Shown here: positions 10,501 through 46,658 of the stretch, piece by piece
Numbering within the stretch: position 1 is the first letter of the stretch
How the letters are laid out: each line of letters starts with the position of its first letter
Origin: Frankiaceae bacterium
GTDB lineage: Bacteria > Actinomycetota > Actinomycetes > BP-191
Length of the DNA stretch: 49,142 bases
Direction of reading: 5' to 3'
Assembly (NCBI GenBank): GCA_035556555.1
Contig: DATMES010000055.1
Location: 1 to 49,142, forward strand
The notes under the pieces: generated by a model
Database searches by the model: none
What the model saw: the letters and a program-made list of their open reading frames with translations, nothing else
What the model was told of the DNA's origin: nothing
Program-made: the position numbers and the translations under genes

Positions 10501-13245
10501 GCAGAGGTACGACGCCGCGTCGGCGACCGTGCCGAACGTGAAGGAGAACGCGTTGGCCCCGCCCGGCGACGTCGTGCCGCTCGGGCCGGCTGTGACCTCG
10601 GGTGCCGCCGGAGGGACCTGCTCGACCGGTGTGTAGATGCCGCCCGACGTGCCGACGAGGTCGAGGCCGTCGGCGCGGTGCGCGATCGTCGTCAGCGAGG
10701 TGCCGTTGGGGAAGCCTCGGTTGAGGGAGTACCAGGTGGTGCCGCCGTCGAGGGACTTGTAGATCGCGTTGCCGCCCCAGCCGGGGACACCGCCGGTGTT
10801 GAGCGCGAGCAGCGTGCCGGTCGGCGACACGGCGAGCCTGTCGAGCAGGTGCGGCGGCGAGAGCTCCGTCCACGTGCCCGCGTCCCACCGGTAGAGCGGG
10901 TTGGCGGCGTCGGCCGTCGCGACGTACGCGACCGCGCGGTCGCCGGGGTCTACGGTCAGCGCGTTCGTGGGGAACGCCGCCGGCGTCTCGCGGCTCGTGA
11001 GCGCGAGCGTCGTGCCGGTGACCGCGCCGGAGACGACGTACGGCGCGCTGGTACGGGTCGCCCAGAACGACGTGCCGTCGATCGCCTCGAGCCGGTTGAC
11101 GACGGTGAGGCTGTCGCCGGTGAGCGCGGAGAACGTGTCGCCGCCGTCGGTGCTGACGCGCACCGCGCCGCCCGACGTGGCGAACGCCACGGACGTGCCG
11201 GGAGCGGCGGAAACGGCTGCGGCAGAGGTGACTCCGGTGGAGACCCAGTCGGTGACGGTCGTGAGGTCGTACTTGTAGAGCGTCGTGCCGAACACCGCGA
11301 GCAGCCGCGCCGTCGCGCCGTCGCGGACGACCGTCAGCGCCTTCGTGTCGGTGCCGGTCGTGGCGGTCGTGCCGAGCAGCGCGAACGACCCGCCGCTGTT
11401 GGTCGAGCGGTACACGCCGGCCGCGGTGGCGGCGTACAGCGTCGTGGGGGAGTCGGGGTCGCGGACGATCTGGCGGGTGTTCTGCGCGCTCGGCGACGGG
11501 CCCTGGAACTTGTCGTTCATGACCGTGATCGCGCGGGTGGCCTTCGTGGACGTACCGGTGATCGTCGCGGTGATCGTGACCGGCGTGCCGGTCGGGCTCG
11601 CGCTCGACGGCGCGGTGTACGTGCTCTTGTCGAAGAAGTCGCCGCCGAACGTCCCGCGCGACGCCGTCCATGTGAGCTTCGGCTCCGCGGTGACGTTGCG
11701 CAGCGACGCGCTGAACTGCGCGGTCAGCGTCGCGTTGACGTGCGTGACGTACGGGTCGACCTCGAACGCGAGCGCTGGGTCCGCCGAGCCCGGCCAGAAG
11801 CGCGAGTCGTCGTCGCCGTTCGCGAACGCGTCGGCCCGTCCGTCGCCGGTCACGTCGCCGACGGTGACGTGGTGCGGGGTGAGCGGCAGTGAGGCGGCGT
11901 GCATCTGGGAGAACGTCCCCGCGCCCGTACGCCGCAGCAGGACAGGCCCGCGGTACGTGCCGCCGGCAAGGTCGAGGAGGCCGTCGTCGTCGAGGTGCAC
12001 CGCCTGGAGGTCGTGCGGGCGCATCGACGCCGCGAGGACCGACGTGGTGTTCATCGCGCCGGTGCCGGTGCCGAGGTTCGGGAAGACGACGAGCTTGGGG
12101 GAGTTCGCGGGGTTCGAGAACGACTCGCCGCCGACGGCGACGACGAGGTCGTTCCAGCCGTCGCCCGTCACCTCGGCGATGTACGGCTCGGCGTCCACGC
12201 CGGTGGTGTACGTCACCTCGCTCGCGATCGAGCCGAAGCCGTTGTTGATGCCGACCTCGAAGACGTCCTGGGTGACGTTCGTCGTGGTGTTGATGCCGAC
12301 CGCGACCTCGGGACGGCCGTCGCCGGTGAGGTCGCCGACACTGAACATCGTCGCGTTGAACGTCGACATGAGCAGCACGGGCGCGTCGAACGTCCCGTCG
12401 CCGTTGCCGGTCTCCAGCAGGACGTTGCCGAAGTGCTCGAGGCGTACCGCGTCGAGGTGGCCGTCGCCGTCGAAGTCGGTGAGCTTCGCCCTGGCGCCGG
12501 AGCGTGCGCCCCCGGTGGTCGGCACCTTCGCGTCGGGTGTGAACGTGCCGGTCCCGTTGTTGCGCCACACCTGGTAGCGCCACGTCTGCGCCTGCGCCGA
12601 CCCGAACGGCACGTAGATGTCGAGGTCCCCGTCCTCGTCGAGGTCACCGAGCTCGAGGTCGAGGACGAAGTCGTTCGTCGCGGTGAAGCCGTCGGCCGCC
12701 CTGGTGTTGGCGTAGTTCGTCGCGGTCTTCGTGAAGCCGGTGCCGTTCCACGACAGGGTCACGAACCGCCATGTGCTGAGCAGGTTGCAGCAGTTCTCCA
12801 GCACGACGACGTCGGCGACGCCGTCGCCGGTCACGTCGCCGATGTCGGTGTCCTGGCCGCCGTCGTGGCCCGTCGCGACCTCCGCGCCGAACGCGCCACC
12901 GGGCACGCCGCTCGCGATCGTCACGACCGCGTCGCCGACGACGCCCGGCGCCTCGACCGACTCCGCGCGGACGACCGCGACCGGGTCTGCGGGGTACGTC
13001 GCGGGCGGCGTGTAGAGACCCGTCTGGCTGACCGACCCGGGGCCGCGCAGCACCGACCACGTGACCGACGTGTCGGTGACGTTGGCCAGGGTCGCGGTGA
13101 GCTGGCGCGAGCCGCCGACCACGACCGAGGACGCGCCGGGCGTGACCCGCACCGTGGGCGGGTCGATCGCCCCCGCCGAGGCAGGCAGCGCCAGGACGGC
13201 GGCCCCCACCGCCACGATCACGAACGACGTCAGAGCGCGACGCAA
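7546..13245 (-). CDS. Giant secreted FG-GAP / Ig-like repeat protein
   Basis: 1899 residues. Sec signal peptide (about 1-25, ending ALPASAGA), then a Big/Ig-like domain (29-110) and seven or so FG-GAP/VCBS repeats with Ca-loop motifs such as GDVTGDGVADVVV, GDLDEDGDLDIYV and GDLTGDGRPEVAV (about 120-480). A sortilin-like propeller region follows (VYRSTNSGGSFALL, about 590-880), then about ten Ig-like repeats carrying paired Cys (TYACTLD, LxxGxHTFxVxAxDxAGN), and finally two copies of a carbohydrate-binding-like domain (SISWYGLRGPSYGTADVYVD and TIDWVTMLGPSMGKAVVYID). The start is TTG 13245 with a strong AGGGGGG site. It is exported, with no LPXTG or membrane anchor visible, so probably a secreted adhesin or matrix protein. 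The 3' end overlaps the Vgb-like gene tail to tail. Confidence 0.85.
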   Translation of the reverse strand: MRRALTSFVIVAVGAAVLALPASAGAIDPPTVRVTPGASSVVVGGSRQLTATLANVTDTSVTWSVLRGPGSVSQTGLYTPPATYPADPVAVVRAESVEAPGVVGDAVVTIASGVPGGAFGAEVATGHDGGQDTDIGDVTGDGVADVVVLENCCNLLSTWRFVTLSWNGTGFTKTATNYANTRAADGFTATNDFVLDLELGDLDEDGDLDIYVPFGSAQAQTWRYQVWRNNGTGTFTPDAKVPTTGGARSGARAKLTDFDGDGHLDAVRLEHFGNVLLETGNGDGTFDAPVLLMSTFNATMFSVGDLTGDGRPEVAVGINTTTNVTQDVFEVGINNGFGSIASEVTYTTGVDAEPYIAEVTGDGWNDLVVAVGGESFSNPANSPKLVVFPNLGTGTGAMNTTSVLAASMRPHDLQAVHLDDDGLLDLAGGTYRGPVLLRRTGAGTFSQMHAASLPLTPHHVTVGDVTGDGRADAFANGDDDSRFWPGSADPALAFEVDPYVTHVNATLTAQFSASLRNVTAEPKLTWTASRGTFGGDFFDKSTYTAPSSASPTGTPVTITATITGTSTKATRAITVMNDKFQGPSPSAQNTRQIVRDPDSPTTLYAATAAGVYRSTNSGGSFALLGTTATTGTDTKALTVVRDGATARLLAVFGTTLYKYDLTTVTDWVSTGVTSAAAVSAAPGTSVAFATSGGAVRVSTDGGDTFSALTGDSLTVVNRLEAIDGTSFWATRTSAPYVVSGAVTGTTLALTSRETPAAFPTNALTVDPGDRAVAYVATADAANPLYRWDAGTWTELSPPHLLDRLAVSPTGTLLALNTGGVPGWGGNAIYKSLDGGTTWYSLNRGFPNGTSLTTIAHRADGLDLVGTSGGIYTPVEQVPPAAPEVTAGPSGTTSPGGANAFSFTFGTVADAASYLCALDDTSWAACTSPKTYSGPLSDGSHTFSVVALDANGNESAPGTRTWSVDATPAPVPSITGGPTGLVNTTSATFDFTLSGDAVGATCALDNATPASCTTGTSYSSLSQGAHTFSVRSVDPAGNASAAAIRSWTVDSVPPSWFGWWNVPQWVSASSSAFFQWQPDASATYACTLDTSPVSCSSSSASLNGLTEGSHTFAVVASDGAGNTSGDSYTWTVDLTNPDPPAITGKPDVSTTATTASFTFASPSSDVSYYLCRLDTGGEFWCNGSQEYSSLAAGAHTFTVKTVDQAGRQSTATTYEWTIAVGVPSLTGGPTGLVNSRTAAFTFTGLEGATFACSLDGATPASCVSGVTYTDLGDGAHTFAVTQTKNGATSSAATREWTVDATAPASPELTAVPPLRTKNTAAGFAWTPDDALTYTCALDGSPVTCGTGAYAASGLGQGTHEFVLTARDAASNASTASYSWTVDTTGPTVSISSKPGVRVASTSASFEFGSAASDLAGFTCTLDGVATACTSPRNLSSLAQGEHTFSVVGTDDLGNAGAAATHTWTVDTAGPVVTFTATPPLFSNDSSPAFDWGTTDADVASYSCTIDGLTDSCGELDLSSLPDGQHSFSVVASDDLGNAGAPATHTWTIDTTAPVTAIATPSSVLNPSHVVSWNEPVTGVTTAAVRLLLTGTATAVPATLTCRTGENAAVACASGSARKAVLVPTAPLTPGQLYTISVGGVNDLAGNATTGTRGYRASTSEQENGLAAKPAWRKASSSVAQGGSFSVSDLKGATASYVFTGTSISWYGLRGPSYGTADVYVDNVLKASKVSFYSRTSGALARSITGLSNAKHTLRIVVRGEKGSTSGTGTNVAVDAFKVGGVLSASPVVTFAWARRSAASASSGAYAVEDSAGATFSMSFRGRTIDWVTMLGPSMGKAVVYIDGVKKGTYDNWAPATKYGYARRFSGLTDKVHTIKITVLGTRRTGATGTNVVVDRFGITP

Positions 13246-14031: not shown

Positions 14032-14908
14032 CAGCGACCTCTGGATGATCCCCCCGGCGCGCAGCCTGCCGGCTCGTCCGGGCGCGCTGGAAGCGACCCG
14101 GCGTCGCGCGGCGGAGATCCGCCGTCATCGACGCCGGGCCGTCGTCGTCGCGGTGGCGGGTGTCGCGTCGACCGTTCTCACTGCGCTCGCATGGTCCGGA
14201 GGCGAGTCCTGGCGCTCCCTGGAGCCCGCGCGCCGGCCGCCGCTCACGAACAGCCATCCGCCCCGGCGCGACGTCGACCCGTCGTACGCTCCGCGCCCGG
14301 CCGACGCGAGCCGGCCGCCGTCCCCCCTGGCGACGTCCGCGGCGCCGGCCCCGTCGCCCTCGGTGCTCCGGACACCGATGTTGACCCTCCACGTCGACGG
14401 GGCGCCGGATCCGGTCGACGCCCTCGACGCGGTCGTCTTCGACCCCGGCGCCCCGGACGGGCTGGTCTGCGCCTCGAGTCTCGGATGGACGTTCGGCCCT
14501 GCCGGATGGTGCATCAAGCTGATCGCGTCGCCTCCGAGTGGAGACCCTGACACGTGGTTCTTCGGGGCGATCATCTGCCGCCTGCCCGGCACCCAGCGCG
14601 GCGTGATCACCAACGACCAGCTGCCTCGCCTGCGTATGTACGACATGGGAGACGGAGCGCTCGTCTTCGACTCGGAGGTGCGTCCGTGGGACGCGCTCGG
14701 TGACGCGGCTCCCTCTCGTACGTGGGGGGTCGATCAAGGCACCTGCGTGATGTTCAACTCACCGTGGGCGTCGATCGACAACGACGGCAATCCGGTCGAG
14801 GAAGGCCCCTACCAGTACGACTGGGACCCCACGGACAGCCAGTTCGACGCGTGGGCGAACGAGCACTCAGGGACCGTCGTCACGGTCGGTCCGAACGGCG
14901 AGTCCTGA
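14024..14908 (+). CDS. Single-pass membrane protein coupled to the ECF sigma, possible anti-sigma factor
   Basis: 294 residues. A basic cytoplasmic stretch (ATRRRAAEIRRHRRR) leads into one transmembrane helix (AVVVAVAGVASTVLTALAW, about 39-57), a Pro/Ser-rich spacer to about 115, and an extracytoplasmic domain with at least four Cys (LVCASSLGW, GWCIKL, IICRLPG, GTCVMF). The cytoplasmic part is only about 38 residues and lacks the HxxxCxxC zinc-binding anti-sigma motif, so a classical anti-sigma function is not shown. The 8-base overlap with the sigma gene is the main evidence for partnership. The outer domain is unrecognised. Confidence 0.7.
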   Translation: MPDSDLWMIPPARSLPARPGALEATRRRAAEIRRHRRRAVVVAVAGVASTVLTALAWSGGESWRSLEPARRPPLTNSHPPRRDVDPSYAPRPADASRPPSPLATSAAPAPSPSVLRTPMLTLHVDGAPDPVDALDAVVFDPGAPDGLVCASSLGWTFGPAGWCIKLIASPPSGDPDTWFFGAIICRLPGTQRGVITNDQLPRLRMYDMGDGALVFDSEVRPWDALGDAAPSRTWGVDQGTCVMFNSPWASIDNDGNPVEEGPYQYDWDPTDSQFDAWANEHSGTVVTVGPNGES

Positions 14909-30330: not shown

Positions 30331-30423
30331 GGAGGCTTCGCCTAGTCCGGTCTATGGCGCCGCACTGCTAATGCGGTTTGGGTCTACAGCCCATCCGGGG
30401 TTCAAATCCCCGAGCCTCCGCCA
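30331..30423 (+). tRNA. tRNA-Ser(GCU)
   Basis: Class II tRNA: acceptor GGAGGCT pairs with AGCCTCC (30413-30419), G discriminator at 30420 and encoded CCA at 30421-30423. Anticodon stem CCGCA/TGCGG holds loop CTGCTAA (anticodon GCT), followed by a long variable arm (GGGTCTACAGCCC) and T arm CGGGG-TTCAAAT-CCCCG. The intact gene is kept at the integration end of the element to the right. Confidence 0.95.
30385..30423. other. Probable attachment site (att) of the right-hand element
   Basis: The 3' part of tRNA-Ser(GCU) adjoins a tyrosine integrase gene whose 3' end lies 92 bases away, the standard layout of tRNA-targeting actinomycete integrative elements. The matching repeat at the far end is not in the window; I found no second copy of the T-arm/acceptor sequence to 49142. 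The exact core length cannot be set from one end. Confidence 0.6.
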
Positions 30424-30514
30424 GATCTACCGTCTGACCTGCACCTTTACGGTTGTAGGTCTTCGGTAGCGGCTGCCTGGAGGGCGCCCGAACCGGCGAA
30501 AACGGCGCCGTTGG

Positions 30515-31810
30515 TCACACGGTGGACACACCGCCTCCCGTCGCCGCGACGGGCGCCTCGTCCGTGACGGGAACGCGACGGCGGCTGTCGAGCGACACCA
30601 CCTGCGCGATCCGATCGGCCGCGTCCCGGGCTACGGCGTGGTCGACGTGGACGTAGCGGTCGGCGGTGAACCACGACGAGGAGTGCCCGACCCGGGCGCT
30701 GATCGCCTTGATCGACACTCCGGCCAGCAGCCCGAGCGTCGCCGACGTGTGCCGCAGGTCGTGCAGCCGGATCACCGGCACACCCGCCTTACGGCACAGC
30801 GCCTGGAACCGCCGAGACACGAAGTCCGGCGACAGGGCCGTCCCGTCCTCGTTGGTGAACACCAGGCCGGTGTCGGTCCACGCCGCGCCCCAGGCCGCCC
30901 GCTCGGCGTCCTGCTCGGCGCGGTGCTGCGCAAGGACCGCCCCGGTGCCCGCGTCGAAGGTCACCGGGCGTTCCCCGGCCTTCGTCTTGGGCGCTCCGAC
31001 GATCACCCCGTCCCGCGTCCGGACCCGCTGCTCGGCAACGGTGGTCAGCAGGGCGTCGAGGTCGACGTCCTCCTCCCACCGCTGCCCCAGCACCTCACCA
31101 CGCCGCATCCCGGTCACAAGCGCCAGGTGGTACAGCGCCCGCAGCCGTTCCGGCTTGCGACCCAGCTCCGCGTCGCCGTCGAGGTAGTCGAGGAAGTCGA
31201 TCGTTTCCTCGGCCGTCCAGACGGTGATCTTCGGACGCGGTACCTCGGGCAGCTCGACGGCCAGCGCCGGGTTGAACACGAGGTACCGGGTGCGGACGGC
31301 CTTGTTCAGCGCCGCACGCAGCATCGCGTGGACCCGTCGCAGCGTCGCCGGGCTCATGGTGCGCCCGTGCCGGTTGGGCCGCACCGCCAGGTCGCGGAAC
31401 AGCCGCTCCACGATCTGCGGGTCACGCTCCAGCTCCGAGAGCTTCACCGACCCGATCGCGGGCTTGAGCAGCCGCTCGATGTAGTCGGTGTACGACTCGC
31501 GGGTAGTCGGGCGCAGCCGGACCTTCCCGGCCAGCCAGACGTCGAGGTACTGCCCGACGGTCATCCGGTGTGCGTCGCCGGGTCGGCCGAGCAGCGCCGC
31601 CGCCCGCTCGTCGCGGGCACGCTTCGCCGACTCCTTGTCAGCGAACCCTCCCTTCCGTTCCTGGTGCCTGTTGTTCCTGCCGCCGTCGATGTCGAGGCGG
31701 TACTCCCAGGGGCACTCGCACGCGCGCGGCCGGCCACCCGACTTGCGGGGGCAGGTCTTGCCGTGCCGCTGCGACAACCCTGGCTCCTTGCGGTTCGATC
31801 CTCTGCTCAT
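30515..31810 (-). CDS. int: Tyrosine site-specific integrase
   Basis: 431 residues. N-terminal Cys/His cluster (HGKTC, ACECPW) with DIDGGRNNRHQERKGGF, an AP2-like arm-binding region common in actinomycete integrases, then a SAM-like core-binding domain (TVGQYLDVWLAGK...). The catalytic domain has Arg236 (TGMRRGE), Lys near 275, His350/Arg353 (HDLRHTSATL), His376 (VGHSSS) and Tyr386 (ADRYVHV). It catalyses integration and excision at tRNA-Ser(GCU). Its ATG overlaps the excisionase stop by 3 bases (ATGA), so int is the distal gene of an ATPase-xis-int operon. Confidence 0.95.
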   Translation of the reverse strand: MSRGSNRKEPGLSQRHGKTCPRKSGGRPRACECPWEYRLDIDGGRNNRHQERKGGFADKESAKRARDERAAALLGRPGDAHRMTVGQYLDVWLAGKVRLRPTTRESYTDYIERLLKPAIGSVKLSELERDPQIVERLFRDLAVRPNRHGRTMSPATLRRVHAMLRAALNKAVRTRYLVFNPALAVELPEVPRPKITVWTAEETIDFLDYLDGDAELGRKPERLRALYHLALVTGMRRGEVLGQRWEEDVDLDALLTTVAEQRVRTRDGVIVGAPKTKAGERPVTFDAGTGAVLAQHRAEQDAERAAWGAAWTDTGLVFTNEDGTALSPDFVSRRFQALCRKAGVPVIRLHDLRHTSATLGLLAGVSIKAISARVGHSSSWFTADRYVHVDHAVARDAADRIAQVVSLDSRRRVPVTDEAPVAATGGGVSTV

Positions 31811-34824: not shown

Positions 34825-35043
34825 ATGTCGGCTATTTCTGGTTCGCGCGCGCGTGGAACGGTCATGATCGGAGGGCTGGCTCTGGCGATTGGGCTAACAG
34901 GCTGTCTCGCAGCCATCTCGGCGGCCTCGGCGGAGCAAAGCAATCAGGCCTCATGGTGCACCGTCCCCGGTTACAGCATCGGCGTACTCGGTCATGAGGT
35001 CGCGCGGACGCCTACCATTGGCCCGATCTGGTGCCCTCCGTGA
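34825..35043 (+). CDS. Small secreted lipoprotein-like peptide
   Basis: 72 residues. Signal with lipobox GLTGC (lipid Cys 27) or, alternatively, Sec cleavage at SAASA. The mature segment is only about 35-45 residues with two Cys bracketing SWCTVPGYSIG...TIGPIWCPP, which could form a disulphide loop. ATG with GGGAGG 5-8 bases upstream, inside a hairpin. No family recognised. It converges on the membrane-sigma gene and is the first cargo gene after the recombination module. Confidence 0.6.
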   Translation: MSAISGSRARGTVMIGGLALAIGLTGCLAAISAASAEQSNQASWCTVPGYSIGVLGHEVARTPTIGPIWCPP

Positions 35044-35064: not shown

Positions 35065-36078
35065 CTAGCGCGGCGGTTGCTCGCAGTAGACGCGTTCGGG
35101 GGTGATGACCGGGTGGGTGACGCAGTACGTCAGGTCACCCACCGGGTCATCCGGGTCGGGTTCGTACTCGGCACGCGACGGCGCCCCGTCCCGCGGTTTC
35201 GCCCACGTTGACTGGTCTTCAGGGCCGACTTCGATGGCGGCAGGCGGCACTCGATCGACAGCAACGTCGATCCTCCGAGCCACTTCACGCCTCGTCTCGG
35301 CGACTGCATCGGACGGGTCGGACCCCGCGGCCGCTCGGTTCGCTCGCGGGGCTCCCATGATGGCGAGGCCCGGACTCCGGGCGCTCTCCTCGTCGCCGTA
35401 GGCGGTCGAGTAGCCAGCCTGTCCCATTCGGTCGTGGTGAAGGCGCAGAATCAGGGCTGCACGCTGTCCTGCAACGGGAACGGCCACGCACACGGCGACG
35501 GCGGCTGCCGGCAACAGCGCGATCATCGACGGCGAGACAACGACTGCCGCATTCGTGGCTCGGCGACGGCGAGCGCAGAACGCGATCAGCGCAAGTTCGG
35601 CTTCGTGGAGTTGTTCCCGGAGTTGCTTGAGACTGCGGGCGATGACGTGCTTAACGGCGTAGACCGATCGCCCGACCCGTTTCGCGATTTCGCCGTTCTT
35701 GAAACCCTCGGCGTATGCCTGCATCACTTCGCGCTGGTCTGGCGGCATTGCTTCGACGGCCGACGCCACCCGCCGGTGTAGCTCGGTTTCGAGGTAGCGG
35801 TCCTCGGCGCTCTCCGCTGTGCCGGGTGCGGCGAGCTTCGGCGCGTAGCGGCGTGCGACGGTATGCGCGCGTGTGGCATCGATCGCCAGGTGCGTGGCGG
35901 CTCGCGCGACCCATCGTGCGGCATGGTCCTCGTCGCGCACATCCGCCTCGCAGCACTGCGCGTAGGCCTCCGCGACAACGCCTTCAGCATCGTCGTCGAA
36001 CCGCCGGGCGATCGACCGGACGATCTTGTCTCGCTCGGCGTAGGCATCCCTGACATAGCCCGCGTGTGTGGTGTCCAC
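35065..36078 (-). CDS. Membrane-tethered ECF-like sigma factor 1
   Basis: 337 residues from GTG 36078; upstream sequence to 36264 looks non-coding. Sigma region 2 (about 15-75: IARRFDDDAEGVVAEAYAQCC..ARWVARAATHLAIDATRA) and region 4 (about 103-160: VEAMPPDQREVMQAYAEGFKNGEIAKRVGRSVYAVKHVIARSLKQL) are followed by a basic CARRRRA stop-transfer and a transmembrane helix (about 178-203). An outer domain of 130 residues ends in YCVTHPVITPERVYCEQPPR. Sigma and membrane sensor are thus one polypeptide. Release would need proteolysis or the factor may act at the membrane. A CTGTC-T-GACAG palindrome lies 13 bases upstream. Confidence 0.82.
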   Translation of the reverse strand: MDTTHAGYVRDAYAERDKIVRSIARRFDDDAEGVVAEAYAQCCEADVRDEDHAARWVARAATHLAIDATRAHTVARRYAPKLAAPGTAESAEDRYLETELHRRVASAVEAMPPDQREVMQAYAEGFKNGEIAKRVGRSVYAVKHVIARSLKQLREQLHEAELALIAFCARRRRATNAAVVVSPSMIALLPAAAVAVCVAVPVAGQRAALILRLHHDRMGQAGYSTAYGDEESARSPGLAIMGAPRANRAAAGSDPSDAVAETRREVARRIDVAVDRVPPAAIEVGPEDQSTWAKPRDGAPSRAEYEPDPDDPVGDLTYCVTHPVITPERVYCEQPPR

Positions 36079-36090
36079 GGCGTCCCCCGC

Positions 36091-36115
36091 CTGTCTGACA
36101 GTCCTACGTGTCAGT
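36091..36115. promoter_or_regulatory. Palindromic candidate operator upstream of tethered sigma 1
   Basis: An 11-base perfect palindrome CTGTCTGACAG (36091-36101) is followed by a further GTGTCAG half (36109-36115). A similar TGTCAG...CGACAG pair occurs at 37869-37885 upstream of the RHS gene. This may be an autoregulatory or shared site. Confidence 0.3.
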
Positions 36116-36172
36116 TCGTGGCGACAGGGACACGTCCTGCCGGGCCTTGCACCCGTTCGTGCGCATCGCGGA

Positions 36173-36613
36173 CTAGGGGGTGAGATCCACACTGGTGGCG
36201 TGGTACCCGTCGATGGTGGTCCAGGTGGCGAGTCCGCTTGAGTGCGCGATGACGCTGCCACCAACGGCCAGGTAGCTGACGCTGATGGCCAGAAAGCCGT
36301 TGGCGGTCCTATCGGTGCTGATGGTGGGGCAGCCGTTGTTGTAGTTCGCCGAGCTGATGTGGATGTCCGGCGGCGTGTAGAGCGTGGTGCCGCGGATGCC
36401 GGAGACCCGGACGGTCCAGTCGCCGGTGATCCGGCCGGTGGTGCTCACCGAGCCGCTGATGCAGTAGATGAAGCCGGTGTTCGTGGCGTTGGGCGCGATG
36501 TCAAGGGTGACGTGGCCGATGGGGGTCACGCCGGCGGGCTCTTCGGCCGCGGCGGGCAACGGGGAGGCGATCACGAGCACAGCGGCCAGGCAGGGGACGA
36601 GGGCGACGCGCAT
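36173..36613 (-). CDS. Small secreted protein between the two tethered sigma genes
   Basis: 146 residues, ATG 36613 with GAAAGGA upstream. Signal peptide MRVALVPCLAAVLVIASPLPAAAEE. The mature protein is a single beta-sandwich-like domain (HVTLDIAPNATNTGFIYCISGSVSTTGRITGDWTVRVSG) with two Cys and many Ser/Thr. It begins 21 bases after the second sigma gene stop, so it is probably co-transcribed with it. It could be an extracellular ligand for one of the sigma outer domains; there is no direct evidence. Confidence 0.7.
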   Translation of the reverse strand: MRVALVPCLAAVLVIASPLPAAAEEPAGVTPIGHVTLDIAPNATNTGFIYCISGSVSTTGRITGDWTVRVSGIRGTTLYTPPDIHISSANYNNGCPTISTDRTANGFLAISVSYLAVGGSVIAHSSGLATWTTIDGYHATSVDLTP

Positions 36614-36634
36614 CCTCGGGTTCCTTTCGGGGGG

Positions 36635-37699
36635 TTAGGGCGGGGGCACGATCCACTCCGGATCGCCGTGCCGTTCACATCTCGTGTAGGGCGCGACGGG
36701 AACGCCTTCGCAGATCGCCACCCGGTCCTGCTTCGCGCAGGTCACGTCATGGCCCTGCCCCTCGGTCAGGCACAGCTCGTCGCCGATCTTGGCGCTGCCG
36801 ACGCACTTGCCGTCGACGAGCTTGCCGTCGACGCACACCTGCGGCGTGTCGGGGACAACGGACTTGCCCGGCCTGCGTGGCGTGCCGGTCGGTGTGGGCC
36901 CGGTGCGGGGCAGCGGCCGTTGCACGCCTGCGGGTCGGGCGGGCGAGGCGGTCGGCCTCGGGGCGGGGATGCGTACAGGGACGCTGTGCACGGCTTCGGC
37001 CGGCGCGGCGGCGATCGTCGTTTGGTGCGGGAGGCTGGTGACGTGCGGGTGGACGAGCATGGCGCACCAGGCCGTGACGCCCACGAAGCTCGTTGCGGCG
37101 GCCCGAGCCGGCGCGGTGATCCTCGTTCGCCAGACGTGGAGCGGCGGCAGGACCGCGGGCGCGTTCCGCAGGTCACGACGCAACGTGTCCCGGCCCCGTT
37201 GCAGGAGCCCCTTGAACGCGGTCGGCGTGATCTGCATGGCCGCGGCCCCGTCGGCGGTCGACAGCTCCCCGAAGTCGGCCAGGACGACCGCCTTGCGCTG
37301 CTCGGGCGGCAGGTTGCGCACGGCACCGCGTACCCGGCTGACCCGCGCACGCCGGACAGCCGCTTCGGCCGGGTCGATCGGGTCGGCGATGTGGTGGCGG
37401 TGCACTAGCCCGAGCCAGGTCTGGTCTCGGACCCGCGCACGCCGCTGCCAGTCGAGGACCACACGCTCGGCAATGCGCTCGGTGTACTCGAACGCCGCCT
37501 CGGTGTCCTCGATGCCGTGGAAGGCGCCGCACAGCCGGGCCACCGTCTCCTGGTACAGGTCCTCGCGGTCCTCCGGGCGGACCCGAAACCGACTCGCGAC
37601 GGACCCGACAGTGCGTCGCAACCGCTCGTCGTGTTCTTCGAGGAACGCGGCGCAGGGCAGCTGGCCGACTGTGTGGTCGATCCCCCGTAGCTCGGTCAC
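36635..37699 (-). CDS. Membrane-tethered ECF-like sigma factor 2
   Basis: 354 residues from GTG 37699. Region 2 (about 20-90: EEHDERLRRTVGSVASRFRVRPEDREDLYQETVARL...RVVLDWQRRA) and region 4 (about 122-178: VRGAVRNLPPEQRKAVVLADFGELSTADGAAAMQITPTAFKGLLQRGRDTL) lead to a probable transmembrane helix (about 198-220). A long Pro/Thr/Arg linker follows, then a Cys-rich outer tail with six Cys (VCVDGKLVDGKCVG, LCLTEG, VTCAKQ, AICEG, TRCERHG). It shares architecture, but little outer sequence, with the sigma gene 560 bases downstream. It is divergent from the RHS toxin, with 401 bases between starts. Confidence 0.82.
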   Translation of the reverse strand: MTELRGIDHTVGQLPCAAFLEEHDERLRRTVGSVASRFRVRPEDREDLYQETVARLCGAFHGIEDTEAAFEYTERIAERVVLDWQRRARVRDQTWLGLVHRHHIADPIDPAEAAVRRARVSRVRGAVRNLPPEQRKAVVLADFGELSTADGAAAMQITPTAFKGLLQRGRDTLRRDLRNAPAVLPPLHVWRTRITAPARAAATSFVGVTAWCAMLVHPHVTSLPHQTTIAAAPAEAVHSVPVRIPAPRPTASPARPAGVQRPLPRTGPTPTGTPRRPGKSVVPDTPQVCVDGKLVDGKCVGSAKIGDELCLTEGQGHDVTCAKQDRVAICEGVPVAPYTRCERHGDPEWIVPPP

Positions 37700-38100
37700 G
37701 CGCTGACCCCCCAGGCCTAACGACGGTATGGCGGCCGCGCGTGCGCGACCGCCTTGCTGACCCCTGTTACACGTTTGAGCGGCCCGGCTATTACAGGTCC
37801 TTCCGCACCGGCCGGCTCGGTCGGCGCGCCGGTCGCGGACGCCGCTGCACGTTGCCGGCAGACCGAAGTGTCAGATACCCGACAGAAATTTCTCCGTTCC
37901 GTTTTGCCGGGTCGTTCGTCCTCCTCCTTCGAACGCCGCTCCAGCCATCTGCCGCGCAGCCGACCACGACCGGGTCGTTCCGGTCGCGAAACCTCGCCGC
38001 GGATAACGGGTCGGCGCGAGGCAATGCACCCGGTCGCTGCGGCGACCCCTGCTTCGGACCGTTACCCCGCCAGGGGGACGACGACAGAACGGACGATGAA
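37700..38100. promoter_or_regulatory. Divergent promoter region between sigma 2 and the RHS toxin
   Basis: 401 bases with no supported gene, although the RHS frame stays open through it. It contains GATAACGGGT (38002-38011, shared with the region before the small lipoprotein), a TGTCAG/CGACAG pair (37869-37885) and a locally AT-rich stretch (GAAATTTCTCC, about 37885-37895) suited to a promoter. Confidence 0.4.
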
Positions 38101-41100
38101 GTGCGCCACGTCTCGCGTGTCCTGGTCGGTCTGCTCGCCACCGCCCTGATCGCCTCCGGCTCGGCCGGCGTCGCGGCGAGCGCGGCAGCGTCCTCGCCCA
38201 TCGAGCCGTCGTCCGGCGGCGGCGCTGCGCAAGGTCGCAAGAGCGCCACCGGCGAGGCGTACGCGCAGCCCCCGACCGGGACCGTGAAGGGCAAGGCGGC
38301 GCCGGTCGAGCCGGTCCCGCAGACCGAGCTGCCGCTGCCGCTGGACGTGCCACAGCCCCTCGACCTCAAGGACGTCCCGAACCCGCCGGAGGTCATCGGC
38401 GGCTACGACCCCGGGACCAGCGTCGAGCTGCCGACGTTGCGGACGGTCGACACCGCGGTGTTCGCGAACGCCAACGGGACGCGGACGGTCTTCGCCTACA
38501 CCGGCCCGGTGCACTACCGCGACGCCCTCGGCCTGTGGCAGAAGGTCGACCAGAACCTGGTGCAGGCGGCCGACGGCTCCTACCAGCCGCGCGGCGTCGG
38601 CGTCGGCCTGAGCCTGGCCGCCAACGCGACCGGCTCACCGCTGGCGAAGCTGACGGTCGACAGCACCCACAGCGTCGGCTACCGCCTCGACAGCGCGGTG
38701 TCCGCGAACGCTTGGGTGTCGGGCGCCATGGCGCGCTACACGAACGTGCGGCCGGGGACCGACCTCGAGCTCGTCGCGCTCGCCAACGGCGTCAAGGAGA
38801 CGATCGTGCTCAAGTCACGGTCGGCGCCCCGCACGTTCACGTTCCCGCTCACCCTGCAAGGCGTCACGGCGTCCGTCGACAGCGATGGCGACGTGGTCTA
38901 CCGCGACAGCGGCGGCAAGGAGTGGGCCCGCACCCCGCGCGGCTCGATGTACGACTCGCTCATCAACGGCGACACCGGCGAAGGCGCCTACAGCGACGGC
39001 GTTAGCTACACCCTCGTACCGTTCGGCGGCGGGACGGCGCTGCGCGTCACGGTCGACTCGACCTGGCTGGACGACCCCGCGCGGGTGTTCCCGGTGCGGG
39101 TGGACCCGACCACCAAGACCGTGCTCACCGACGCCGACGACACCTACGTACAGACCGGCTACACGGCCAACAACTCGACCGAGCCCGAGATCAAGATCGG
39201 CACGCCGACCACCACCCCGAACACGACCTACAGCTACCTGCACTTCGCCGGCATCAACTCGACCTACACCAACTACTACGTCACCGGCGCCGACCTCGCC
39301 CTGTACGAGACCCACGCCTGGACGTGCACGCCGAAGTCCTGGACGGTGCACAACGTCACGTCCGCCTGGTCCGGTTCGACGATCAAGGCGTCCGCGCAGC
39401 CGTCGTTCAACGCCACCCCGATCGTCACGACCAGCTCGGCGAAGGGCGACACCTGCGGCGGCGCCGGCTGGAACACCCCGACGATCACCAGTGCCGTGCA
39501 GAACTGGACGCACGGCACGCCGAACTACGGCCTCACGGTGCGGCCCGGCAGCGCCACCGACCGCAACTTCTGGAAGCGGTTCGCCTCCCACCAGGGCGAC
39601 CCGACCAACCACACGAGCGCTCCCAGGGTCACGTTCAGCTACTCCACCGAAGGCGCCAAGTACGACCTCGACAAGTGGATCACCAACCCCACCAACACCA
39701 CGAACGGCAAGTTCCGCATCAAGCTCACCAACTGGGGCCACGACCCGTGGACGGCCGGCGGGGCGTACAAGCTCGGCTATCACCTGTACGACAGCGCCGG
39801 GAACCTGGTCAACCAGAACGGCACCCGGACCGCGATGCCGACCACGGTCAACCCGCGCGGCTCGATCACGCTGGACGCCACCATCGGCAAGGTGCCGCCC
39901 GGCAACTACATCGTCGTGTTCGACATGGTGCACGAGGGCGTCGCCTACTTCTCCTCCCGGGGCGTCCCCGTGCCCTCCGGCGTCGCGATGGCCGTCAGCA
40001 ACCAGGCCCCGGCGATCAGCAAGGTCAACAGCCCCGGCGACCTGGCGGCCGTCACGACCAACCGTCCGACGTTCTCGGTGACCGGAGCGGACACCGACGC
40101 CTACCCGGCCAGCGGCACGCTGTCGTACTACTTCCGCATCTGCGAGAACCCCGACGCCGAGACGCCCGCCGCGACCTGCGTCAACTCCGGCTGGATCTCA
40201 AGCTCGGCCTGGACCGCGCCCGCGAACCGGCTGTTCTACCGCAGGACCTACTACTGGCACGCCTACATCAAGGACTCCGGCGGCGCCCAGCGGAACCCGA
40301 ACTGGGTGTACCGGTTCACTCCCGTCGTCTCCGACACCTCGGCTGGCGCGCACTTCGGCGCCGACCCGTACGGCATCGACAGCGGCGGCGTGAACGTCTC
40401 GACCAGCAGCTTCACCACCTCGGCGGTCGAGGCGCCGGTCGCCACCATCGGCCCGCCGCTGTCGGTAACCCGCACCTACAACAGCGGCGACACCAAGATC
40501 GGCGCGTTCGGTCAGGGCTGGTCGACGCTGTACGACATGTCCGCCACCGCGGACGCCTCCGGCAACGTCACCGTCATCCACGCCGACGGCCGCAAGGCCC
40601 TGTACGGCAAGAACCCCGACGGCACCTTCGCCGCCTCCTACGGCTACTACTCGACGCTGGCCGCGGTTAGCGGCGGCGGCTGGACGCTCACCGACAAGGG
40701 CGCCAACACCTACACGTTCAACACCGGCGGCCGCCTCACGACCGTCAACGACCCGGCCGGCCGGCAGCTCACCCTCGCGGACAACGGCGCGGGCGTCACG
40801 ACCGTCACCGACACCGCCAGCGGCCGGACCCTCACCCTGGTCCGGACCGGCAGCCTGGTGACCTCCGTCAGGACCCAGACCGTCGGCGCGATCGGCAAGG
40901 CGCTCGAGTGGCGGTACTACTACACCGGCAGCCAGCTCAGGGCGGTCTGCGACCCGCGCGACAACGCCGACGGCGGCAGCTGCGTGAGTTACGAGAACGC
41001 CGGGCCCGGCGGGCGGCTGTCGAAGATCACCATGCCGCGCGGCAACACGCCGGTCAGCCTGACCTACCACACCGACGGGACCGTGCTCAGCCGCACCGAC

Positions 41101-44100
41101 GGCAACGGCAAGACCTGGACCTATCTCAGCGTCGACGTAGCGACCGACCTGGACACCGGCGGCTGGGAGCACCGCCTCACCGTCCAGGACCCGAAGAACC
41201 ACAACACCGAGTACGTCTACGACGGCCTCACCGGCCGGCTCATCCGGCGTACCGACCCGGCCGGGAAGGTCCAGACGTACGGCTACGACACCACCACCGG
41301 CTTCCTCACCAAGATCACAGACGAGAACGGCAACACGGTCACCCTCACCGTCGACGACCGCGGCAACATCACCTCGCGCAGCGTCCCCTACGGCGACGTC
41401 GCCGGCTTGGTCGCGACCAGTTACTACGACTACATCTACGAGCCGGGCAGCCCACGGGACAACAAGATCAACGTCTTCCGGGACGCCCGCTCGGCGAACG
41501 CCAACGACGCCACCTACGCCGTCAGCTACGTCTACAGCGACAGCACCGGCCAGATCACAACCGTGTCCACCCCGGCGACGGCCGCCTTCCCGTCCGGCAC
41601 CACCGCGACCTGGGCCTACACGAACGGCAGCGAAGCCGCCGTCGGGTCCACCGGGACGCAACCGGCTGGGCTGCTCGCGACGGAGACCGACCCGCGCGGC
41701 AACACGACCAGCTATTCCTACAACAGCAGCGGCGACCTGACCCGCGTCGTCGACCGCAGCGGCCTGCGGACCGACTACGGGTACGACGAGCTCGGGCGGC
41801 TCGCCACCACGACCGCCTTCCCGACCAACCACCCGAGCGGCGTCACCACCACTTACACCTACGACCTGTCCGGCATCGTCGGTCAGGTCGACGGCCCGCC
41901 GGTGCTCAACCAGCGCACGAACCAGACCCACCAGCTGCGTACCGTCAACACCCCCGACGCCAACGGCATCATCCGCGACGTCACCGTCTCCGACGTCCGT
42001 GGCTTCGACGCGCCCCGCGTTACCCACTACGACTACGACAACAACGACCAGCTCACGCTCGTCCGCGACCCCGAGGGCGGGACGACGACCCGCACCTACG
42101 ACGACGCCGAGAACGTCGCCACCGTCACCGACCCCCGCGGCCTAACGACCCAGTTCGACTACGACGTCAACGACCAGCTCACCACGGTCACCGCCAAGGG
42201 CTTCATCGACGACCCGATCACCCCCGGCGCGCCCCGCGACGTGGTGCTGGCCCGCTACACCTACGACGCGGCGGGCTGGCTCGACACCGCCACGGACGCC
42301 CGCGGCGTCGTGCGCGACTACACCTGGAACCCCGACCAGCGGCTGCGGTCGGTCACCGTCAAGGGCTACCGCAACACCGACGGCACCACCCGCGACATCG
42401 TCACCGAGTGGCACCAGTACGACCCCGCCGGCAACGAGACCGTCACCAAGCTCGGCGGCTACCTACGGACCGTCAACTCCACCTACGACGCCGCCGGCTG
42501 GCTCTCGAGCCAGGTCGACGACGCGGCCACGATCAACCGCACCACCAGTTACGTCCGCGACCAGGCCGGCAACGTCGTCACCCGCCGGCTGTCGGACGCC
42601 ACCCGCACCGAGGAGACCCGCTACGGCTACGGCCCCTCCGGGCTCGTCACCTCCATCACCGTGGAGAACGGCGCCACCGACCTGACGACCACGATCGAAC
42701 GGGACAACCGCGGCCTGATGATCGGCCGGACCGACCCGCGCGGCAACACCGTCACCCCGCCCGACCCCACCTTCAAGGAGTTCTGGAACTACGACGCCGT
42801 CGGGCAGCTCCAGCAGTACACCGCCCGCACCACCACCAACGAGACCCAGGCCGGCACGGCCGGCACCCGGCGCCTGGAGTACTTCGGCTACAACACGTTC
42901 GGTGAGCAGACCGAGCACGACACCCGCGGCTTCGGCCAGGGCCGGATCACCAGCACCTACGACCGCGCCGGACGGCTGACCGGCCGCGCCTACCCCAGCT
43001 ACACCCCGCCGGGCGGCACCGCCCTGAACCCGACCGAGTCGTTCGGCTACAACCCGGCCGGTGACCTCACCAGCCAGATCGACCGGCGCGGCAACACAAC
43101 TACCTTCGACGTCGACCTGCGGGGCCGGCTCGTCCGGCGCACGCAGCCCAAGCCCGACCCGGCGCAGCCCAACCCGGTCGCCCGCTGGAGCTACGACGAC
43201 CAGGGCAACCTGACCGCCGCCGTCGACGCCACCGGCGCGCGCACCGAGTACGGCTACGACGACCTGGACCGGCTGCGTCACCACGTCAGCGTCGTACGCA
43301 ACGGCACCCCGACGCCCAGCCGCTACACCACCACGTTCGACTACGACGACCTGGGCAACTCCAACAAGCGGGTCAGCCCGCGCGGCGAGACCGGCTACGC
43401 CAACCACAACGCCGTCAGCGAGCTCATCCAGCTCCAGGACGACGCCGGGCACCTGTGGAAGACCGGCCGCGACGTCGCGGGCCGCGAGATCAAGCACACC
43501 GACCCGCTCGGCCGCTACCAGAGCACGATCTTCGACCTGGCCGGCCGCGCCACGACCCGGCAGGCGTACAGCCCGACCAACGTCCTGCTCCGCACCGAGA
43601 ACGCTACCTACGACCTCGCCGGCAACCTGACCTCGTACACCCCGTCCGCGAGCGGTCCGGGCCAGACGAGCCCGGCGACGCGGACCTACACCTGGGACCG
43701 GGAGAACCGGCTGCTGTCGCTGGTCGAACCGACCACCGGCACGCAGACCATCACCACGACCTTCGGGTACGACACCTGGGGCAACCGCACCCGCACCACC
43801 GACGGCAACAACCGCACGACCTGGACCGCCTACAACCCCTGGGACCTGCCTGAGACGGTCACCGAGCCGGTCACCGCTGCCTACCCCGCGGTCGCCGACC
43901 GGACCTGGACCACCAGCTACGACGGCGGGGGCCTGCCGGTCAAGGTCGACAAGCCCGGCGGCGTCAGCGTCGCCCGCAGCTTCGACACGCTCGGCCGGCT
44001 CACCGCCGAGACCGGCACCGGCGCGCCGGGAACCCGCGCGCTCGGCTACGACCTCGCCGGCCGGCTCATCAGCGCCGGGCACCCCAGCGGCAACCAGACC

Positions 44101-46380
44101 TTCGGCTACGACGACCGCGGACTGCTCACCTCCTCGACTGGGCCGGCTGGCAACGCCACCCTGGGCTACGACGAGGACGGGCGGCTCACCAGCCGCACCG
44201 ACCCGGTCGGCACCACCTCGTTCACCTACGACCCGCGGGACCTGCCCGCCACCATCACCGACCCGATCACCGGGCGCACGCAGACCCTGACCTACTTCAA
44301 CGACGGTCAGCTCAAGACCCGTCAGTACGGCAGCGGTGGCGCGACCCGCAGCTACACCTACGACAACCAGGGCCGGCTCGCCACCGACACCGTCAATGCG
44401 CCGAGCACCGGCGCGGTCACCACGGCCACCAGCTACGGCTACGACAGCGTCGGCAACGTCGCCAGCCAGACCATCAGCCCGGCCGGGATATCCGGCGCTG
44501 GCACGCACACCTACGGCTACGACCTCGCCGACCGGCTGACCAGCTGGACCGGCCCGGCCGGAACCAAGACCTACGGCTACGACAACGCCGGGAACCGCAC
44601 CACGGCAGCCGGCAAGACCTACACCTACGACGAACGCAACCGGCTCGTCTCCGACTCGGCTGGCGGCACCTACACCTACACGGCCCGCGGCACCCTGGCC
44701 AGCGCACCGGTCGCCGGGTCGCAGGGCACGCTCACCGCGGACGCGTTCGGCCGCATCCTCACCGACAGCGGGACGACGTTCAGCTACGACTCGCTCGACC
44801 GGGTCGCGACCCGCGGCCCGAACTCCTACTCCTACGACGGCGTCGACCCCGAACCGGTAGTCGTCGGCATCACCAAGAGCGCGCGCGGACCAGGCGGGGA
44901 GCTGCTGTCGACCAACATCGGCACCGGCGGCAGTGCGATCATCACCAACGGGCACGGCGACACCACCGCCTACCTCAACCCGGCCACCGGCGCGGTCAAC
45001 GGCTCGCACTCCTACGACCCGTTCGGGGTGCAGTCCACGACCGGCAGCTCCGGGTTCGGCGGATTCCAGGGGCAGCAGACCAGCCCCGCGCAGCGGGTCT
45101 ACATGCAGTCCCGCTGGTACGACCCGGCCACCGGCACCTTCGCCGGCCGCGACACCCTGCCGATGTCCGGCCTGAGCGGCGGCGGCGCGAACCGCTACGC
45201 CTACGGCCTGGGTAACCCGGTCACGCTCAACGACCCGACCGGTCACTGCCCGCCCGCCGCCTGCCTCACCGGCGGCGCTGCGGCGGTCGGCACCGGCGCC
45301 GCGGTGGTCACCGCTCCTGCCTGGGCCATCCCGGTCGCGGTCGGTGTCGGCGTCGTCGGGCTCGCTGCCGGCGGGTGGTGGCTCGGCAACAAGATCCGCG
45401 ACCAGATCTACGGTGACGAGGCCGCCTCCAGCTCGTCGTCGAAGATCACCTTCGGGACGAGCAGCGCCCGGTACTACGACACCCTGCGCTACCCGACGCC
45501 GCAGTACTACACCGACGCCTGGTACAACCACGACTGGACCCGCCCGCCCGGCCCCGGCTACCCGCCCGCGCCCGGCCAGCCGCGATGCAAGACCTGCGGG
45601 GACGAGCAGATCATCCCCAAGCCCAAGCCGCCGCGCATCTTCATCGCCGGCCCGGTCCCGCCCGGAGCGGGCACGTTCAAGCCCATCATCATCGACCCGC
45701 TCGAGAACGTCCTGACCCTCGCCGCCGCACCGGCCCCGGCGCCTGCGCCGGTCACGGGCACTACCGCCGACGACAAGAAGGGCTGCGGCAAGGGCGGCAC
45801 CGCGAACTCCTGCACCCCCAAGCAGTCCTCGCTCACCCGTGGCTGCGACCTCGACGGCGCCAGCACCATGCGGCCCTGCGAGCCCGTCGTGCCGCAGGCC
45901 GGTGCCCACCGCGGGGGCAACAACGGGGGCCCGGCGGTCGGCACCGCCCAAGGTGGCTGCGACGACATCGCCGGCATCTTCGACCCGGACTGCGCGCCGA
46001 AGAGCACCGTCGATGACTACCTCGATCTCGTCGAGTACCTCGACGTGTCGACCGGCCCGAACGAGGCGGTGTTCTACTCCGGGCCAGGCAACCGCGCGCT
46101 CGCCGAGGCGTTCGCCAAGCAGAACGGCAAGAGCACCCTGGAAATGACGAACGGCGGCCGCTGGCTCGATGCGCAACGGCTGTTCGAGCCCAACCAGCTG
46201 ACCACCGAGGAGGCACTGCAGGTGTGGTCCCGCCTGTCCGAGCGGTTCGCGGCCGGATCGTCCGGATCGGTAACCGGTTTCGTCGACGGCGCGAAAGCCA
46301 CCGGTATCTTCAACACGGTCGAGTACCCGACCCTGTTGTCCAACCCCAACGTCACCAACGTCATTACGGGCGGTCTGTGA
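38101..46380 (+). CDS. Secreted RHS-repeat polymorphic toxin with ADP-ribosyl-cyclase-like C terminus
   Basis: 2759 residues from GTG 38101, where a Sec signal begins (MRHVSRVLVGLLATALIASGSAG). Order: Pro-rich linker; beta-rich N-terminal region with a DNRLRE-like domain (about 338-500); DUF6531-like entry (about 747-800); some 40 YD/RHS repeats (about 935-2250) forming the encapsulating shell; the conserved RHS core end (SRWYDPATGTFAGRD...NRYAYGLGNPVTLNDPTGH, about 2336-2382). Then come a hydrophobic helix-rich segment (2386-2432), a Pro/Cys linker and the variable toxin tip (about 2653-2759). The tip aligns by eye with CD38/ADP-ribosyl cyclases: FYSG (W125 region), STLEMTNGG (Glu2681, cf. 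TLEDTLLG), VWSRLSERFA (Trp2709, cf. FWKTVSRRFAE) and NTVEYPTL (Glu2741, cf. SVEVHNL). Predicted to degrade or cyclise NAD in target cells. Overlaps its immunity gene. Confidence 0.92.
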   Translation: MRHVSRVLVGLLATALIASGSAGVAASAAASSPIEPSSGGGAAQGRKSATGEAYAQPPTGTVKGKAAPVEPVPQTELPLPLDVPQPLDLKDVPNPPEVIGGYDPGTSVELPTLRTVDTAVFANANGTRTVFAYTGPVHYRDALGLWQKVDQNLVQAADGSYQPRGVGVGLSLAANATGSPLAKLTVDSTHSVGYRLDSAVSANAWVSGAMARYTNVRPGTDLELVALANGVKETIVLKSRSAPRTFTFPLTLQGVTASVDSDGDVVYRDSGGKEWARTPRGSMYDSLINGDTGEGAYSDGVSYTLVPFGGGTALRVTVDSTWLDDPARVFPVRVDPTTKTVLTDADDTYVQTGYTANNSTEPEIKIGTPTTTPNTTYSYLHFAGINSTYTNYYVTGADLALYETHAWTCTPKSWTVHNVTSAWSGSTIKASAQPSFNATPIVTTSSAKGDTCGGAGWNTPTITSAVQNWTHGTPNYGLTVRPGSATDRNFWKRFASHQGDPTNHTSAPRVTFSYSTEGAKYDLDKWITNPTNTTNGKFRIKLTNWGHDPWTAGGAYKLGYHLYDSAGNLVNQNGTRTAMPTTVNPRGSITLDATIGKVPPGNYIVVFDMVHEGVAYFSSRGVPVPSGVAMAVSNQAPAISKVNSPGDLAAVTTNRPTFSVTGADTDAYPASGTLSYYFRICENPDAETPAATCVNSGWISSSAWTAPANRLFYRRTYYWHAYIKDSGGAQRNPNWVYRFTPVVSDTSAGAHFGADPYGIDSGGVNVSTSSFTTSAVEAPVATIGPPLSVTRTYNSGDTKIGAFGQGWSTLYDMSATADASGNVTVIHADGRKALYGKNPDGTFAASYGYYSTLAAVSGGGWTLTDKGANTYTFNTGGRLTTVNDPAGRQLTLADNGAGVTTVTDTASGRTLTLVRTGSLVTSVRTQTVGAIGKALEWRYYYTGSQLRAVCDPRDNADGGSCVSYENAGPGGRLSKITMPRGNTPVSLTYHTDGTVLSRTDGNGKTWTYLSVDVATDLDTGGWEHRLTVQDPKNHNTEYVYDGLTGRLIRRTDPAGKVQTYGYDTTTGFLTKITDENGNTVTLTVDDRGNITSRSVPYGDVAGLVATSYYDYIYEPGSPRDNKINVFRDARSANANDATYAVSYVYSDSTGQITTVSTPATAAFPSGTTATWAYTNGSEAAVGSTGTQPAGLLATETDPRGNTTSYSYNSSGDLTRVVDRSGLRTDYGYDELGRLATTTAFPTNHPSGVTTTYTYDLSGIVGQVDGPPVLNQRTNQTHQLRTVNTPDANGIIRDVTVSDVRGFDAPRVTHYDYDNNDQLTLVRDPEGGTTTRTYDDAENVATVTDPRGLTTQFDYDVNDQLTTVTAKGFIDDPITPGAPRDVVLARYTYDAAGWLDTATDARGVVRDYTWNPDQRLRSVTVKGYRNTDGTTRDIVTEWHQYDPAGNETVTKLGGYLRTVNSTYDAAGWLSSQVDDAATINRTTSYVRDQAGNVVTRRLSDATRTEETRYGYGPSGLVTSITVENGATDLTTTIERDNRGLMIGRTDPRGNTVTPPDPTFKEFWNYDAVGQLQQYTARTTTNETQAGTAGTRRLEYFGYNTFGEQTEHDTRGFGQGRITSTYDRAGRLTGRAYPSYTPPGGTALNPTESFGYNPAGDLTSQIDRRGNTTTFDVDLRGRLVRRTQPKPDPAQPNPVARWSYDDQGNLTAAVDATGARTEYGYDDLDRLRHHVSVVRNGTPTPSRYTTTFDYDDLGNSNKRVSPRGETGYANHNAVSELIQLQDDAGHLWKTGRDVAGREIKHTDPLGRYQSTIFDLAGRATTRQAYSPTNVLLRTENATYDLAGNLTSYTPSASGPGQTSPATRTYTWDRENRLLSLVEPTTGTQTITTTFGYDTWGNRTRTTDGNNRTTWTAYNPWDLPETVTEPVTAAYPAVADRTWTTSYDGGGLPVKVDKPGGVSVARSFDTLGRLTAETGTGAPGTRALGYDLAGRLISAGHPSGNQTFGYDDRGLLTSSTGPAGNATLGYDEDGRLTSRTDPVGTTSFTYDPRDLPATITDPITGRTQTLTYFNDGQLKTRQYGSGGATRSYTYDNQGRLATDTVNAPSTGAVTTATSYGYDSVGNVASQTISPAGISGAGTHTYGYDLADRLTSWTGPAGTKTYGYDNAGNRTTAAGKTYTYDERNRLVSDSAGGTYTYTARGTLASAPVAGSQGTLTADAFGRILTDSGTTFSYDSLDRVATRGPNSYSYDGVDPEPVVVGITKSARGPGGELLSTNIGTGGSAIITNGHGDTTAYLNPATGAVNGSHSYDPFGVQSTTGSSGFGGFQGQQTSPAQRVYMQSRWYDPATGTFAGRDTLPMSGLSGGGANRYAYGLGNPVTLNDPTGHCPPAACLTGGAAAVGTGAAVVTAPAWAIPVAVGVGVVGLAAGGWWLGNKIRDQIYGDEAASSSSSKITFGTSSARYYDTLRYPTPQYYTDAWYNHDWTRPPGPGYPPAPGQPRCKTCGDEQIIPKPKPPRIFIAGPVPPGAGTFKPIIIDPLENVLTLAAAPAPAPAPVTGTTADDKKGCGKGGTANSCTPKQSSLTRGCDLDGASTMRPCEPVVPQAGAHRGGNNGGPAVGTAQGGCDDIAGIFDPDCAPKSTVDDYLDLVEYLDVSTGPNEAVFYSGPGNRALAEAFAKQNGKSTLEMTNGGRWLDAQRLFEPNQLTTEEALQVWSRLSERFAAGSSGSVTGFVDGAKATGIFNTVEYPTLLSNPNVTNVITGGL

Positions 46381-46658
46381 TGTTCACGCGGATAGCACCA
46401 AAGCAGGTCCGGCACGACTCCGGCTTCATCGTTCAGGTCGCTAGCCGCGAAACCGTCGAGCACGTCGACGGCGACCGCGTGGCAGTGTTCGTGATCGAGA
46501 TCGGCTCCCCTGGACACGCTTTGACCTTGTACACCCGACGCGCGACCTGGAAGGACGGCGGGGCCCCGACCGACGAGGAGCGCCGCGTACTCGCGGAGCA
46601 GGTTCGGCAAGGTCTGACCGAGCTCATCGACCGCCCGGTCGAGATCACCGACGAGTAG
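46380..46658 (+). CDS. Probable immunity protein for the RHS toxin
   Basis: 92 residues. The ATG shares one base with the toxin TGA (TGATG), the expected place and size for a cognate immunity gene. No signal peptide: it should act in the cytoplasm and block the toxin tip. Predicted alpha/beta: three strands (FIVQVASRETVEHV, DRVAVFVIEIGS, ALTLYTRRATW) then an acidic helix (DEERRVLAEQVRQGLTELI) and acidic tail (EITDE). I do not recognise the family. Confidence 0.75.
   Translation: MFTRIAPKQVRHDSGFIVQVASRETVEHVDGDRVAVFVIEIGSPGHALTLYTRRATWKDGGAPTDEERRVLAEQVRQGLTELIDRPVEITDE

Follow-up and report, generated by a model that had tools for sequence, protein, structure and literature searches.

Several sigma factors of the extracytoplasmic function (ECF) type are made as one chain with a membrane part. 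In the groups ECF52 (SCO4117 of Streptomyces coelicolor), ECF48 and ECF53, the ECF sigma domain is fused to a transmembrane segment and an outer region, which is proline-rich in ECF52, and activation by proteolysis has been proposed for all three (PMC5826349, PMC8999054). For SCO4117, the first characterised member of ECF52, neither has the protease been characterised nor the signal been established (PMC5826349). IutY of Pseudomonas putida (ECF243) joins a sigma factor and a membrane anti-sigma part in a single chain, from which proteolysis frees the active sigma factor (PMC8999054). Here we describe two genes of this general build, designated type A and type B, that lie beside an RHS gene on a contig of 49,142 bases (G000:C55; the whole contig was analysed and is called the window) from a high-GC actinobacterial genome of 4.0 Mb (G000). 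Such tethered sigma factors are of a known kind; the new element is a dedicated secreted, cysteine-rich partner. At what we judge to be an even chance, these proteins belong to a family of single-chain sigma-factor receptors that is specific to this lineage and in which each receptor has a secreted partner of its own, a reading that is based on the domain architecture, the conserved gene neighbourhood, the even numbers of cysteines, the partner-specific distribution and private promoters in sister subfamilies.

The window proteins resemble ECF52, ECF48 and ECF53 in that the ECF sigma domain is followed by a hydrophobic segment, clear by hydropathy in type A and weak in type B, and a predicted outer region. 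Unlike those groups, they have a short tail with a cysteine pair and a dedicated secreted partner. The single chain of IutY is likewise similar, but IutY answers a siderophore through a cell-surface signalling system, and no small secreted cysteine-rich partner is described for it (PMC8999054). Neither a zinc finger (ZAS-like) after sigma4 nor the C-terminal carbohydrate-binding domain of ECF52 was matched by Pfam in the two window proteins or in three relatives (L055, L084 and L093), and the window sigma factors were therefore not assigned to ECF52 or ECF53. A literature search that lacked most subscription journals returned no paper describing the pairing with a secreted partner.

Two tethered sigma factors and their secreted neighbours

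The type B sigma factor (36635–37699, minus strand, 354 amino acids) consists of sigma2 and sigma4 (Pfam Sigma70_r2, 8.7e-7; Sigma70_r4_2, 1.3e-9), a hydrophobic segment near residue 198, a proline-rich stalk and an outer tail with six cysteines. The segment is weak, with a Kyte–Doolittle value of 1.39 compared with 2.07 and 1.71 in its relatives; these relatives, together with cysteine parity, support a predicted membrane segment in this protein too. The type B tails have the pattern C-x(10-13)-C near the end in common. On the same strand, 21 bp downstream, lies a gene for a partner of 146 amino acids (36173–36613) that has a signal peptide, judged by eye and by a heuristic, and two cysteines in the mature part. 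This protein matches no Pfam or NCBIfam family. Its AlphaFold model is all-beta and of low confidence (pLDDT 52), and a Foldseek search with the model gave no match below an E value of 1e-2.

The type A sigma factor (35065–36078, minus strand, 337 amino acids) matches Pfam Sigma70_r4_2 (2.3e-9), and its two sigma regions are spanned solely by the ECF superfamily model TIGR02937 (7.3e-14, residues 23–161). Its start was refined from 36264 to the GTG at 36078 because alignment A3 starts there. The hydrophobic segment is clear (near residue 185; Kyte–Doolittle 2.47; MIALLPAAAVAVCVAVPVA), and the tail carries two cysteines, a terminal pair that is invariant across the nine aligned proteins, the window copy included, although the other eight are only 23–36% identical to it. 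AlphaFold folds the sigma part alone (pLDDT about 80–97), whereas the hydrophobic segment and tail are of low confidence, so the model is no test of topology. The presence of both sigma domains, with the type A sigma part modelled at good confidence, places these proteins among the ECF sigma factors. These results bear out two elements of a sequence-only reading of this DNA, namely two leftward sigma genes with a hydrophobic segment, weak in type B, and an outer domain, and a gene for a small secreted protein lying between the two.

That reading had not taken as a partner the gene that converges on the end of the type A sigma gene across a gap of 21 bp (34825–35043, plus strand). It encodes a small secreted peptide of 72 residues with two cysteines in its mature part, and homologues are present in both loci of genome G002 that have type A and type B sigma factors (L046 and L047). 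The signal region of the window peptide contains LTGC, a possible lipobox that is absent from the two homologues.

A small secreted gene usually accompanies tethered sigma factors in the genus

Three genomes of the genus were compared: that of the window (G000), G001 and G002. In L046, types A and B are neighbours separated by the type B partner gene, as in the window, and in L047 they are about 8 kb apart. A fourth type B gene is found elsewhere in the window's own genome (L185, 6002–7201), where the partner gene overlaps it by 4 bp. L046 and L047 also have further secreted genes in common (14151–14573 and 12302–12694, respectively) with almost identical upstream regions, possibly a common regulon.

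Tethered sigma factors were surveyed in the three genomes at loci with long open frames by scoring C-terminal extensions. About 30 were seen, or about ten per genome, including the window pair, L185, L096/L225 and L220. A small gene with a signal peptide was directly adjacent to 21 of the 26 that were scored, versus 5 of 55 ordinary ECF genes (Fisher P = 2e-10), and on inspection by eye such a neighbour is present for three of the remaining five (L097, L053 and L052). These heuristic counts are lower bounds, because the gene caller missed the type A gene of the window and one partner (L109). The small gene, whose product is usually cysteine-rich, stands at the 3′ side of the sigma gene, either co-directional or convergent, in each arrangement often with a 4-bp overlap. 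This adjacency suggests that one bacterium may hold many private outside-to-inside signalling pairs.

Cysteines were even in number in all 28 tails and in all 26 partners readable in the right frame, whereas the cytoplasmic parts were mixed. Together with the invariant pair of type A, this would fit a redox or thiol sensor, in which the cysteines of tail and partner form a switchable disulfide whose reduction triggers release. Stable structural disulfides predict even counts equally well, however, and we consider such a sensor improbable. The adjacency and cysteine sequences are related, so these counts are not independent and the P values overstate their independence.

The pairing beyond the genus

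In another family of the class, all seven full-length relatives have a small secreted cysteine-rich neighbour, either convergent or co-directional. A search from the partner side, in which a four-cysteine partner family alone (alignment A6) was the query against 297 genomes, returned 22 matches. They came from only seven genomes, all in these two families, and 20 of them lay beside a tethered sigma factor. Most of the 22 were members of the query alignment itself; of those outside it, L220, L222, L224 and L225 have a tethered sigma factor. In the two exceptions, no tethered sigma factor was found in a short stretch (L210) or within 1.5 kb (L223).

Promoters at sister loci

A bipartite ECF-type promoter of fixed spacing precedes the partner gene, or the operon of sigma factor and partner, in sister subfamilies. 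Four such motifs were counted in 1.32 Mb of DNA, in which, by area, 12% of occurrences would be expected to lie no more than 2.5 kb from a tethered sigma factor. The motif GTAAC-N16-CGTA occurred nine times, always within that distance and upstream of partners and divergent genes. Proximity was similarly found for six of the eight occurrences of GAAGGA-N15-CGTA, nine of the twelve of TGTCCC-N17-CGTA and all three of GAAACC-N15-CGTT. Moreover, in five relative loci (L097, L109, L111, L053 and L054) the divergent neighbour bears the locus's own ECF-type promoter. The motifs were derived from sequences upstream of partners, and the independent part of this evidence is therefore their recurrence at divergent neighbours and their scarcity elsewhere. 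Because the promoters recur there and are scarce elsewhere, the pattern argues that a tethered sigma factor would drive its partner and often its divergent neighbour as well.

The same promoters bring in the main rival explanation: the secreted protein may be a mere output of the sigma factor, such as an envelope or antagonistic peptide, and the tail may sense something else. Partner genes and divergent neighbours often have the same promoter, as expected if the partner were simply a target, and the sequences of the partners are highly variable and not the same from one subfamily to another. Against this stand the near-strict one-to-one adjacency at the 3′ side of the sigma gene, in both co-directional and convergent orientation, and a partner distribution limited to genomes with tethered sigma factors. 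On balance, we hold a mere output to be possible though not probable.

Several points weigh against a family of receptors with dedicated partners. The hydrophobic segment of the type B sigma factor is weak (Kyte–Doolittle 1.39), and AlphaFold yields no confident helix for that of type A. The homologues of the convergent peptide lie 2–4 kb from the type A gene in L046 and L047 rather than next to it. A cognate ECF-type promoter for the window pair did not turn up: enumeration of bipartite motifs in the window gave none that was specific. Finally, the sequences are related, and both the promoter motifs and the palindrome described below were picked after inspection, so that the nominal P values overstate independence.

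A proposed route from secreted partner to transcription

From these arrangements we infer membrane topology, proteolytic release, contact between partner and tail, and control of the toxin. In the proposed model, the ECF sigma domain would be cytoplasmic, a single helix would cross the membrane, and a proline-rich stalk would carry a disulfide-paired tail outside. Each receptor would have its own secreted partner, the product of 36173–36613 for type B and that of 34825–35043 for type A, and partner and tail would most likely meet outside the membrane. The conservation of the secreted neighbour suggests that it serves the tail as a ligand, lid or chaperone. A change in the partner–tail complex, whether binding, loss or a redox change, would open the receptor to regulated proteolysis; the released sigma domain would then transcribe the gene of its partner and, at several loci, also the divergent neighbour. 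Release by proteolysis would be the natural model for tethered sigma factors if they behave like other proteins in which sigma factor and receptor are fused (PMC8999054, PMC5826349). Genes for site-2 proteases (M50), which are near universal, are present in the genome.

A broader and more speculative proposal, which we rate as rather doubtful, is that these proteins make up a new class of signalling system. Its dozens of receptors (about ten in each genome) would each have a secreted cysteine-rich ligand of their own, and many also a private class of promoter; they would form parallel peptide-to-transcription channels, one of them wired to an RHS toxin. If the partners are ligands, they would be a new family of extracellular signalling proteins in actinobacteria and could supply switches that work independently of one another. 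How fused sigma-receptors sense becomes directly testable through the compact, repeated pairing of a small secreted protein with a private promoter.

The RHS gene as a candidate target

Divergent to the type B sigma gene is a gene for a secreted RHS/YD-repeat protein of 2,759 amino acids (38101–46380, plus strand), with RHS/YD repeats (PF05593, 3.8e-74) and an RHS-associated core (TIGR03696, 2e-13). Its C-terminus (45961–46380) has a sub-threshold match to ADP-ribosyl cyclase (PF02267, E = 3e-4, score 20.7 with a cut-off of 25). The small gene directly 3′ of it (46380–46658, plus strand) matches no family and, by position only, may be an immunity gene. This layout, in which an RHS-core protein ends in a distinct C-terminus and its gene is followed by a small one, is that of RHS/YD-repeat polymorphic toxin loci.

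The sequence-only reading had proposed that the sigma pair forms a surface-cue-driven circuit for toxin expression. A dedicated circuit, with the pair evolved to control the RHS gene, would agree with the divergent placement of that gene and with the probable targets at divergent positions in the five relative loci. The linkage is not a rule, however: no tethered sigma factor was found within about 8–10 kb of the other RHS loci (0/17 regions in the three genus genomes), the nearest case in a relative being about 12 kb away (G002:C61), and in this the window differs from the other RHS loci of the genus. A promoter motif shared by the regions upstream of 38101, 34825, 36613 and 46781, which the same reading had anticipated, did not emerge from the enumeration of bipartite motifs in the window.

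The divergent intergenic region between the RHS and type B sigma genes also contains a rare palindrome, TGTCAGATACCCGACA, at 37869–37884, placed 170 bp away from the start of the sigma gene and some 217 bp from that of the RHS gene. When one mismatch at most is allowed, TGTCRGRTAYCYGACA has 9, 1 and 7 copies in the three genus genomes, and the reversed control has none. It stands upstream of five of the seven type A and type B sigma genes, within 320 bp (nominal P about 5e-16, for a motif picked after inspection). The shared position would suit a dedicated toxin circuit, but the palindrome is also found upstream of an Lhr-like helicase gene in each of the three genomes (G000:C46:166161; G001:C67:29047; G002:C67:22943) and of other, unrelated genes. 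With the missing linkage and the lack of a shared ECF promoter in the window, this leaves a dedicated circuit unlikely.

The helicase gene, which in two of these genomes was found to diverge from the recA operon, raises the alternative that the palindrome is the operator of a general regulator, for example of DNA damage or envelope stress, to which the RHS gene would answer instead of to the sigma factor. Its presence at five of the seven type A and type B sigma genes speaks against this, and it is not a LexA box: that identity was rejected because the region upstream of lexA has GAAC-N4-GTTC. A general operator seems to us no better than an outside prospect. Because divergent neighbours carry the locus promoter in five relative loci and the palindrome recurs upstream of the same sigma types, we regard the RHS toxin as a plausible target. 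Of the circuit first proposed, the fusion of sigma factor and sensor in one chain is supported and a surface-driven circuit is likely, whereas a general linkage to RHS genes does not hold.

Other features of the window and genome

A tyrosine integrase gene lies beside a tRNA-Ser gene at 30331–31810. No second copy of its att site was found in the contig, which ends at 49142. The 4.0 Mb genome of the window gave 78 matches to sigma region 4, which looks unusually many.
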